A stretch of DNA of 38,375 nucleotides from a virus, in IMG/VR virus record IMGVR_UViG_3300044608_001003, positions 1 through 38,375 of that record; one strand, written 5' to 3'. Position numbers and translations under genes: made by a program. Positions within the stretch are counted from its first letter, which is position 1. Every line of letters starts with the position of its first letter. Of this stretch, positions 10,833-37,392 are shown piece after piece. The notes under the pieces are model-generated. The model saw only the letters and a program-made list of their open reading frames with translations, made no database searches and was not told the origin of the DNA.

Positions 10833-10909
10833 AGTTTATGATTGCATACCTCATAGCCTGTATAATCTTTGCAATCATTGTTGCGTGGCATACGCCAATC
10901 GGAATGTAA
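10829..10909 (+). CDS. 26-residue membrane peptide
   Basis: ATG 10829 overlaps the upstream stop and encodes MKFMIAYLIACIIFAIIVAW followed by HTPIGM, a single hydrophobic helix. The stop TAA shares its last base with the methyltransferase ATG. Function unknown. Together with the gene before it, this forms a tandem of tiny membrane proteins. Confidence 0.45.
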   Translation: MKFMIAYLIACIIFAIIVAWHTPIGM

Positions 10910-11727
10910 TGCGAGCTCTTTCATTGTTTACTGGTTACGGCGGAATAGACTTGGCATTGGAGGACTATGTTAGACCAATCATGTATTGTGAGATTGAAAA
11001 ATATTGCCAAGGAATCATCCTCTCAAGAATGGATGACGGAACTCTCCCATTCGCTCCAATCTGGAATGACGTTACAACACTGGACGGAAACAAACTTAGA
11101 GACCTGGTTGACATTATTTACGGTGGATTCCCCTGTCAGGATCTCTCTGTTGCAGGAAAGGGTGCAGGATTGGCAGGAAAGCGAAGCGGCCTTTTTACAG
11201 AGATCATTCGACTCGCAGAAGAAGCATCCCCTACTTTCATCTTCCTTGAAAATGTGCCAGCAATTAGAACAAGAGGATCACTCCAAGTTCAAGAAGCACT
11301 GGCCAGCATCGGGTATGATACTCGATGGTGTACTTTATCCGCTTCCGAAGTTGGTGCAAACCATAAAAGAGAAAGATGGTTCTGCCTCGCTAAGAAAAGA
11401 GATGTATCCAACACCAACGGCGAAGACCTATGGAAGCAATCAAACAGATTCTCCAAATGCGAAGGTGCGGCAATCTCTGGATACAATGGCAAGAAAGAAT
11501 ACTTGGCCAACACCAGCGGCGAGAGATTGGAAAGACAACGGCAAGTCACCAGCAGAATTAAAGATAAACTCAACAACATTAGCGACTCACGCTGGTGGTC
11601 AACTGAACCCGATGTGGGTAGAGTGGCTAATGGGGTTGCCTTTAGGGTGGACAGAATTAAAGCCTTGGGTAACGGAGTTGTTCCGATTCAAGTCAAAACA
11701 GCGTTTGAAATCTTAATTGGAATTTAA
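10909..11727 (+). CDS. dcm: DNA (cytosine-5) methyltransferase
   Basis: This 272-residue protein has the standard C5 motif order: I, FTGYGGIDLAL (7-17, AdoMet); IV, GGFPCQDLS (72-80, catalytic Cys76); VI, ENVP (114-117); VIII, NHKRERWFCLA (151-161); and IX-X, RIKALGNGVVPIQ near the end. Residues about 162-245 form the target recognition region, with WWSTEPDVGRVANGVAFRVD just before motif X. No endonuclease partner is seen, so it most likely masks phage DNA from host restriction. I start at ATG 10909, which fits the MRALSLF beginning of the family; an in-frame GTG at 10885 would add 8 residues. A second long frame lies inside this gene. Confidence 0.93.
   Translation: MRALSLFTGYGGIDLALEDYVRPIMYCEIEKYCQGIILSRMDDGTLPFAPIWNDVTTLDGNKLRDLVDIIYGGFPCQDLSVAGKGAGLAGKRSGLFTEIIRLAEEASPTFIFLENVPAIRTRGSLQVQEALASIGYDTRWCTLSASEVGANHKRERWFCLAKKRDVSNTNGEDLWKQSNRFSKCEGAAISGYNGKKEYLANTSGERLERQRQVTSRIKDKLNNISDSRWWSTEPDVGRVANGVAFRVDRIKALGNGVVPIQVKTAFEILIGI
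10967..11716 (+). CDS. Overlapping second frame in the methyltransferase gene
   Basis: A 249-codon open frame, shifted +1 relative to the methyltransferase, covers 750 of its 819 bp. Its product has order I would not expect by chance: a GMILDGVLYPLP motif, two WPTP/YPTP repeats (EMYPTPTAKTYG and TWPTPAARDWKDNG), and GGQLNPMWVEWLMGLPLGWTE. I remember these motifs from predicted proteins next to or inside phage C5 methyltransferases. The bases encoding LNPMWVEWLMGLP also encode the methyltransferase's TEPDVGRVANGV. ATG 10967 is only the first ATG; no ribosome site is clear, so frameshift expression or an internal start is possible. Product function unknown. Confidence 0.45.
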   Translation: MLDQSCIVRLKNIAKESSSQEWMTELSHSLQSGMTLQHWTETNLETWLTLFTVDSPVRISLLQERVQDWQESEAAFLQRSFDSQKKHPLLSSSLKMCQQLEQEDHSKFKKHWPASGMILDGVLYPLPKLVQTIKEKDGSASLRKEMYPTPTAKTYGSNQTDSPNAKVRQSLDTMARKNTWPTPAARDWKDNGKSPAELKINSTTLATHAGGQLNPMWVEWLMGLPLGWTELKPWVTELFRFKSKQRLKS

Positions 11728-36132: not shown

Positions 36133-37392
36133 TTATCTCACCTTGGTGCTTGGAGTTAGATTTAGTGTAGTTTGAGGCAATAGCTTATGGCAACCATAAC
36201 CTAGCGCATCAGATATATGGGTTAGCATTGGATCTGTCTTTTGATCGAGCTCGTTGTTTCTCCACTGAACCTTCTCAAGGTCGTTAATAAGCTTTTTGCA
36301 TCTAGGATGAATCAGAATCTTGCCTTCTTTTAGCCTGAGATTCATTAAGTTTACCCGATCTTTTACGAATGGATTATAAGTAGACTCGATTATAAACCCG
36401 GCTGCTTTAATGATGTCAAAATCAGATTGACCTGATGTTTTCCTGTTTCGTCCGGTTGAGTCTGGGATAACCCGAGCACCTTTGTATTTCTTTGACCACT
36501 CAAATACAGCTTTTGGAGTATCTGAGTTTTCAAGAAACCACTCATCTATGACTTGGATTTGTCCATTAATAACTTGAGCAACGACGGAACAATGGGGCAT
36601 CACGTTAAAATCGGCAAAAATAAATTTTGTCCCTGGATATTCTTGGAAGTCTTTTACGTGATCTTCTCTTCTAAACTCATAGTAAACCTGGCCATCTGAC
36701 TCGTCCTGAAACTCTCCATCAAGAAATCTCATACGCTCTCTTTCTGGCATGGATTTAAGCATGTTTAAATAATCTTGATCAATGTTTTCTATATTATCTT
36801 TTGGATTCATTCTTAACCATGCATAGTTATCGGGGTCTAAAAGCGGCTCATTGTCAGCAGGATTAAGCTTTTTGATAAACTGATAATATCCCCAATGCGT
36901 CTTCTCACTTGGGTTAAGATCATAATAGGCTTTCTTTTTTAAATCGTTCTTTTCGGCTAACCTTGTCAACGCCATTTGCACTGATCGGTAGTCCATTTGT
37001 GTAATTTCATTGAAAAATATGCTTGAGTATTCTTTTCCTAGAATTTTCTCAACTCTTTTGTCATCATCAAGTCCAGCAAACCACAACTCTGATCCATTAG
37101 GAAAAGTGATAAAGTAATCTGTCTTATTCCATTGAAGAGGAAGATTAGGAAAGCAAACTTTAGAAACTTTTATAGCGGTGTCCATCCATAATGAAGTTTT
37201 AATAGAGTTAAATGTTTTCCTGAGTGCCACTTGCCTAGATTTAACTTTGCAAGCTCGCACAAACAAAGCGTATAAGATGATAAACGACTTGCCGCTTCTA
37301 CTTCCCCCCAAAAGAGAAATATGTTTACAATCAGAACTTAATAGTTCTAATGCTTTTTTTTGAATGGTAGTTTTTTTAAACTCTTGCGACAT
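36133..37392 (-). CDS. terL: Terminase large subunit, version B
   Basis: This 419-residue motor has Walker A GGSRSGKS (29-36) and Walker B SSIFFNEIT (123-131). The nuclease has FADFNVMPH (Asp261), PDSTGRNRKTSG (Asp311) and DPMLTHISDALGYG near the end. It is shorter than version A and clearly a different lineage, although both have the same architecture and the same 2-bp spacing to the portal. It overlaps the HNH gene by 17 bp. Confidence 0.94.
   Translation of the reverse strand: MSQEFKKTTIQKKALELLSSDCKHISLLGGSRSGKSFIILYALFVRACKVKSRQVALRKTFNSIKTSLWMDTAIKVSKVCFPNLPLQWNKTDYFITFPNGSELWFAGLDDDKRVEKILGKEYSSIFFNEITQMDYRSVQMALTRLAEKNDLKKKAYYDLNPSEKTHWGYYQFIKKLNPADNEPLLDPDNYAWLRMNPKDNIENIDQDYLNMLKSMPERERMRFLDGEFQDESDGQVYYEFRREDHVKDFQEYPGTKFIFADFNVMPHCSVVAQVINGQIQVIDEWFLENSDTPKAVFEWSKKYKGARVIPDSTGRNRKTSGQSDFDIIKAAGFIIESTYNPFVKDRVNLMNLRLKEGKILIHPRCKKLINDLEKVQWRNNELDQKTDPMLTHISDALGYGCHKLLPQTTLNLTPSTKVR

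Follow-up and report, generated by a model that had tools for sequence, protein, structure and literature searches.

The locus analysed here raises the question of whether a long second reading frame inside a phage C5-cytosine DNA methyltransferase gene is a gene in its own right and, if it is, what its product does. The DNA is the IMG/VR virus record IMGVR_UViG_3300044608_001003, taken at its full length of 38,375 bases (the window), in which terminase, DNA polymerase exonuclease and Erf-like annealing genes are present. The methyltransferase gene, whose product is called alpha here, occupies positions 10909-11727 of the + strand. Its likely start is the ATG at 10909, which shares a base with the TAA stop of a small ORF just before it (TAATG) and was judged likelier than an alternative GTG at 10885; the ORF from this GTG has 280 aa, and alpha residue numbers are counted from it. 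A first-pass annotation had placed a second ORF inside this gene, and it is there exactly as claimed: on the + strand at 10967-11716, in the +1 frame of the alpha gene, with an ATG start and a product of 249 aa (beta). The motifs that had been read in it were also found, namely YPTPTA (11405-11422), WPTPAARDWKDNG (11504-11542) and LNPMWVEWLMGLPLGWTEL (11603-11659), as was the methyltransferase-frame reading TEPDVGRVANGV at 11602-11637. At the ends of the same record lie two different terminase-large-subunit-like genes, both on the - strand (769-2121, matching phrog_2 with E 1.9e-29, and 36136-37392, matching phrog_979 with E 8e-37); they share 26% identity, and two TerL-like genes in one phage record are unusual.

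The +1 frame stays open in homologues

The length of the second frame was compared with that expected from the encoded methyltransferase. In the window gene the +1 frame runs for 255 codons without a stop, versus a mean of 113 in synonymous-codon shuffles, none of 300 of which reached that length. Over 102 unique homologues, +1 runs had an average maximum length of 260 codons versus 104 after shuffling, and the +2 control gave 58 versus 57. Because this set included loci found with a beta query, the test was rerun on 127 unique genes chosen by their alpha frame, nearly all of them from alpha queries only: the +1 run was then 271 codons versus 114 in the shuffles, the +2 frame gave 53, and 91% of the genes reached P ≤ 0.02. 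Stops in the second frame of relatives had been named beforehand as the finding that would speak against dual coding, and in these genes the frame stays open. As a family control, all PF00145 genes were sought in twelve bacterial genomes that carry the alpha/beta locus. The +1 runs of the canonical, complete-profile C5 methyltransferases of these genomes were no longer than those of their own shuffles, whereas the alpha-type genes had +1 runs of 205-340 codons. The +1 frame of the catalytic core of ordinary C5 methyltransferases also yields beta-like peptides, as a by-product; similarity to beta in the core is no evidence by itself, since the enzyme fixes those nucleotides in ordinary methyltransferases too, and the open-frame, family-control and substitution tests are independent of it.

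One or other frame was broken by stops or frameshifts in some loci (L043, L149, L199, L246 and L361), which could reflect decay or sequencing error. The L361 copy (E. coli PCP07014, 801-1562) is a degraded prophage alpha/beta pair with nearby stops in both frames, and it is annotated as a pseudogene with an internal stop. In L043 and L044 the long open frame is the +2 instead of the +1 (166 and 172 codons, respectively), and in L043 the alpha frame is joined to the beta C-terminus, by an assembly error or a natural fusion.

Both frames of the overlap are under purifying selection

Substitutions were analyzed in 14 independent close pairs, with the flanking genes of the same pairs, read in a mock +1 frame, as the control. 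Changes synonymous in alpha were also synonymous in beta in 10.8% of cases versus 4.0% expected (p 4e-9), while in the flanking genes the changes synonymous in both frames were 8.3 versus 7.5% expected (p 0.23). Likewise, 46% of the alpha-changing substitutions were silent in beta versus 33% expected (p 4e-8), while in the flanking genes 31 versus 32% of the changing substitutions were silent in the mock frame (p 0.75). The SN/SS rate was 0.34 in the overlap and 0.90 in the flanking genes. Purifying selection acts on both frames of the overlap and was not seen on the +1 frame of the flanking genes; an unreduced rate of synonymous change had been the other finding named as speaking against dual coding, and at sites where synonymous change would affect the second frame, its rate is lowered. 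Since the frame is open in relatives and synonymous change is reduced, the computations bear out the large-scale dual coding that had been proposed. Beta is selected as a protein, so that it is almost certainly translated, and we regard it, with a confidence close to certainty, as a real conserved protein-coding gene.

The strength of selection on each frame was then read region by region. Ahead of the point where beta begins in the window, alpha residues 1-28 evolve like a single-coding gene, with 20/4/77% of the changes at codon positions 1/2/3. In the target recognition (TRD) region (alpha 171-235; 11410-11598 in both frames), where alpha reads NTNG...DSRWW, predicted to be disordered, and beta reads PTPTA...WPTPAARDWKDNG..., the changes fell 57/18/24% at alpha codon positions 1/2/3, and the rate per site in the close pairs was 0.205 for changes altering alpha only versus 0.071 for those altering beta only. 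Beta is the more constrained frame here. This excess is seen in the close pairs; across the distant relatives the TRD entropies are similar in both frames (3.40 bits in alpha and 3.29 in beta, 127 genes). In the same 127 genes the alpha/beta entropies were 1.23/2.14 bits in motifs I-IV, 1.54/2.10 in motifs V-VIII, 1.34/0.91 at the motif IX site and 1.39/2.25 in motif X. As computed from these values, constraint is handed from alpha to beta and back to alpha, with alpha leading in motifs I-VIII and X and beta at motif IX. The M of the WLMG of beta, for example, is 98% conserved, versus 45% for the alpha residue at the same bases.

In three other loci (L116, L120 and L127) the TRD-to-motif-IX cassette is 73-81% identical in beta to that of the window (11500-11660), with the shared pattern PTPTARDxKDNGKSPxEL..NSKTLATHAGG.LNPMWVEWLMG, although their alphas are only 27-33% identical overall to that of the window. 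A similar beta cassette beside diverged alphas suggests cassette exchange.

The methyltransferase chain is predicted to lack its small domain

Alpha has the features of a C5-cytosine methyltransferase. It matches phrog_363 (E 8.5e-64) and PF00145 (E 4.5e-37), the latter over positions 1-232 of the 324 of the profile only, and carries motif I (LSLFTGYGG, 10918-10944, by alignment to canonical C5 methyltransferases), motif IV with the catalytic PCQ (GGFPCQDLS, 11122-11148; G81, P83, C84, Q85 and S88 are invariant in 80 alphas), motif VI (ENV), motif VIII (GANHKRERW, 11353-11379) and motif X (RIKALGNGVVP, 11653-11685), in which G262 and N263 are 98-100% conserved in alpha and beta is variable. 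An AF2 model built with 80 sequences reached a pTM of 0.73, with pLDDT mostly >90 at residues 9-175 and 255-278; residues 190-250 had a pLDDT of ~42 and almost no secondary structure. The model matched M.HhaI with a Z of 23.1 over 193 of 327 residues, and the profile alignment to canonical enzymes ends after motif VIII. In C5 methyltransferases the small domain carries the TRD and motif IX, according to PMC3404938. This domain was sought in the alpha chain itself and was absent by Pfam, AF2 and profile alignment. The computed fold of alpha is incomplete: because the Pfam match stops, the TRD part is disordered and the HhaI match is partial, alpha is modelled as an M.HhaI-like large domain (motifs I-VIII and X) that lacks the small one.

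The second protein may carry motif IX

Beta matches phrog_1008 (E 1.9e-23), as do all 83 aligned beta proteins, and tblastn in IMG/VR gave 571 pattern-selected relatives; the beta motifs, which the first-pass annotation had connected with phage methyltransferase loci, are real. PHROG 1008 is labelled 'DNA methyltransferase' and is grouped with PHROG families 26627, 31772, 27243 and 35493, but beta itself has no methyltransferase core, and the label was probably borrowed from the overlapping true methyltransferase gene. No convincing relatives of beta were found in Pfam, NCBIfam or the PDB. The protein is nearly invariant in PTP...PTP...GGxLNPxWVEWLMGxPxGWT; T155 and P156 of the YPTPTA motif and T188 and P189 of WPTPAARDWKDNG are conserved in at least 90% of cases. 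The AF2 model of beta alone was poor (pLDDT 61, pTM 0.24), which would not be surprising in a subunit that needs its partner to fold. Its most confident part is the block around SGMILDGVLYPLPKL (11309-11353; pLDDT 81-91), a predicted beta-hairpin in which G122 and G127 are nearly invariant. The model was too poor for use, and its single Foldseek match was discarded as noise.

When the whole beta profile was aligned to canonical C5 methyltransferases (hhalign), the best alignment placed beta LNPMWVEWLMGLPLGWTELK on motif IX RLTPRECARLMGFPD. The match covers ~20 residues with an E of ~0.06. Its score of 20.9 exceeded that of all 300 column permutations (mean 12.1, maximum 20.3) but was reached by 7% of those that kept 7-column blocks together (P 0.07). 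The likeness of beta to motif IX is good, but falls short of conclusive because of the 7% of block-keeping permutations that reach its score. This motif IX-like segment, LNPMWVEWLMGLPLGWTEL, where the alpha frame reads TEPDVGRVANGVAFRVDRI, adjoins motif X, and its position fits the M.EcoHK31I type.

Distribution and annotation of the pair

The occurrence of beta was examined in viral and cellular genomes. A beta match was present in all 47 viral loci found by an alpha query, in L044 out of register. Among bacterial and archaeal genomes, one 8-residue beta pattern led to 318 confirmed loci, and beta overlaps alpha with the same offset in 80 of 80 retrieved bacterial loci of many phyla (with a frameshift in L149 and L199). 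No stand-alone beta gene was found in these 80 loci or in the viral loci examined. In the gammaproteobacteria roughly 16 of 369 genomes had the pair, and the weaker matches were ordinary methyltransferases. Integrases and phage replication genes are among the neighbours of the bacterial copies (144 in the 80 loci), and the 25 commonest neighbour families contain no restriction enzyme; because of the integrases and phage replication genes, most bacterial copies look like orphan prophage methyltransferases. A possible relative is the methyltransferase BA_3814 of a B. anthracis prophage, which has been predicted to be EaeI-like (PMC4722110).

Nine of ten cultured phages examined had an open beta frame, with hosts in Mycobacterium, Paenibacillus, Lacticaseibacillus, Bacteroides, Synechococcus, Salmonella, Vibrio and Acinetobacter. 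The annotation of Gordonia phage Jumbo has two short genes in this region, and gp35, the only one tested, gave no significance. Both frames are annotated in only one of the ten, Paenibacillus phage Shelly, where SHELLY_56 is called 'g55 internal gene', and in E. coli PT62 PGAP calls alpha alone. The pair is widespread in phages and prophages and almost unannotated, and no paper describing the phage-wide overlap was found in the literature collection that was searched. The first-pass annotation had offered common misannotation of one frame as an alternative to dual coding. This stood in part: annotators usually call one of the two frames and rarely beta, but the second frame is itself a real gene.

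A proposed two-subunit enzyme and its alternatives

The evidence points to the second protein being the missing small domain of the same enzyme, with motif IX and probably target recognition. It is highly probable, on sequence and model, that the locus encodes one C5-cytosine DNA methyltransferase whose two subunits are read from the same DNA in two frames, and nearly as probable that beta is the subunit missing from the enzyme of alpha. In the proposed mechanism, alpha would be the large catalytic domain, with the AdoMet-binding motif I, the catalytic PCQ of motif IV and motifs VI, VIII and X, and its stretch at the usual place of the small domain would probably be an unstructured linker. Beta most likely supplies the small, DNA-recognising domain in trans, bringing the target-recognition region with its PTP repeats and the motif IX helix (LNPxWVEWLMGxPxGWT). 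Both chains would be translated from one mRNA and combine into a working, site-specific methylating enzyme, with which the phage probably modifies its own DNA against host restriction; the complex, its activity and specificity, and this purpose are what we infer from the analysis.

Beta could instead be a real protein with a separate job, for instance as an anti-restriction factor, a regulator or a DNA-binding protein, the overlap being incidental. The absence of a recognisable fold in beta alone and the shortness of its motif IX resemblance would fit this, but beta was never met without alpha in the 80 bacterial loci and all the viral loci examined, the domain missing from alpha is exactly what beta could supply, and the constraint on beta peaks where the small domain should be encoded. 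We consider a separate job improbable.

The starts of the two frames bear on a further alternative, namely programmed ribosomal frameshifting that would fuse the beta C-terminus to the alpha N-terminus, with no separate beta protein. A strong SD-like match precedes the first beta ATG in 52% of the loci, versus 12% for other in-frame ATGs. In the window, beta begins 58 nt inside alpha, behind a GGAGG of its own (10959-10963), a possible ribosome binding site with a short, 3-nt spacing to the ATG. In 128 of 281 unique pairs an NTGAATG is present (ATGAATG in 60, GTGAATG in 42 and TTGAATG in 21), which allows an alpha start only 4 nt before that of beta, so that one ribosome binding site can serve both frames, as it would in many relatives. 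The natural single-frame junction of alpha to the beta C-terminus in L043 would suit a frameshift product. However, SD-like sequences are enriched at a start codon of beta's own, the TGA within NTGAATG closes the beta frame directly before the beta ATG, motif X would be lost in the fusion unless a second shift occurred, and M.EcoHK31I consists of two polypeptides; frameshifting is very unlikely. That the second frame is a by-product, open and conserved-looking only since the methyltransferase is conserved and avoids +1 stops, might be argued from the beta-like +1 peptides of ordinary catalytic cores and from PTPTA being a mere +1 reading of NTNG-type codons, but a chance frame of this kind, to which we give next to no credence, is refuted by the synonymous shuffles (104-114 codons, not 260-271), by the short +1 frames of ordinary methyltransferases in the same genomes, by substitutions that avoid beta-changing sites in the overlap and not in the flanking genes, and by motif IX residues that are better conserved in beta than in alpha.

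Comparison with known enzymes and implications

The proposal of a small domain provided by a second, dual-coded chain has a parallel in M.EcoHK31I, the small subunit of which, 176 aa long, likewise comes from a different frame within its alpha gene. M.EcoHK31I (YGGCCR; Lee, Kam and Shaw 1995) has a large subunit with motifs I-VIII and X, like alpha here; PMC3404938 describes it as a two-polypeptide C5 methyltransferase with motif IX on the second polypeptide, and the title of Lee et al. 1995, cited there, states that both polypeptides are needed for methylation. Beta may likewise carry motif IX. There are two differences: M.EcoHK31I is part of an E. coli restriction-modification system, whereas alpha/beta here is a phage gene, and its TRD is predicted on alpha in the same paper, whereas the TRD constraint and the alpha model point to beta in our locus. 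M.AquI (CYCGRG) is a natural two-chain split of a C5 methyltransferase, as is proposed here, but it is cut in the variable region with motifs IX and X both on the small subunit, whereas these would be interleaved between the chains in our locus. M.HhaI and M.HaeIII are monomeric, with the TRD and motif IX in one chain, and alpha shares the large-domain fold of HhaI. The record of Paenibacillus phage Shelly gives the same overlap as two genes, with no function proposed there. The best reading of the locus would be a two-subunit C5 methyltransferase of the M.EcoHK31I kind, with beta as its dual-coded small domain.

We lean, with moderate confidence, towards a fuller version of the two-subunit reading, in which the catalytic domain belongs to alpha and the small domain (TRD and motif IX) lies entirely on beta, selection on the DNA of the TRD and motif IX acts chiefly through beta, the pairs form a large, old, nearly unannotated family with staggered starts in phages and prophages of many phyla, and one cassette swap changes the specificity region of both subunits. 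It is rare for a same-strand overlap of ~250 codons to be conserved in phages from many bacterial phyla, and such cases are valuable for the study of how one stretch of DNA serves two proteins. If, as is probable, the two proteins are halves of one enzyme, each useless alone, this would explain why the overlap has been kept. PGAP and most of the phage records looked at systematically hide a gene here, and the many records with a single phage 'DNA methyltransferase' would miss a probably essential subunit, so that alpha cloned alone may give false-negative methylation; the beta cassette, in turn, may offer a basis for the prediction of specificity.
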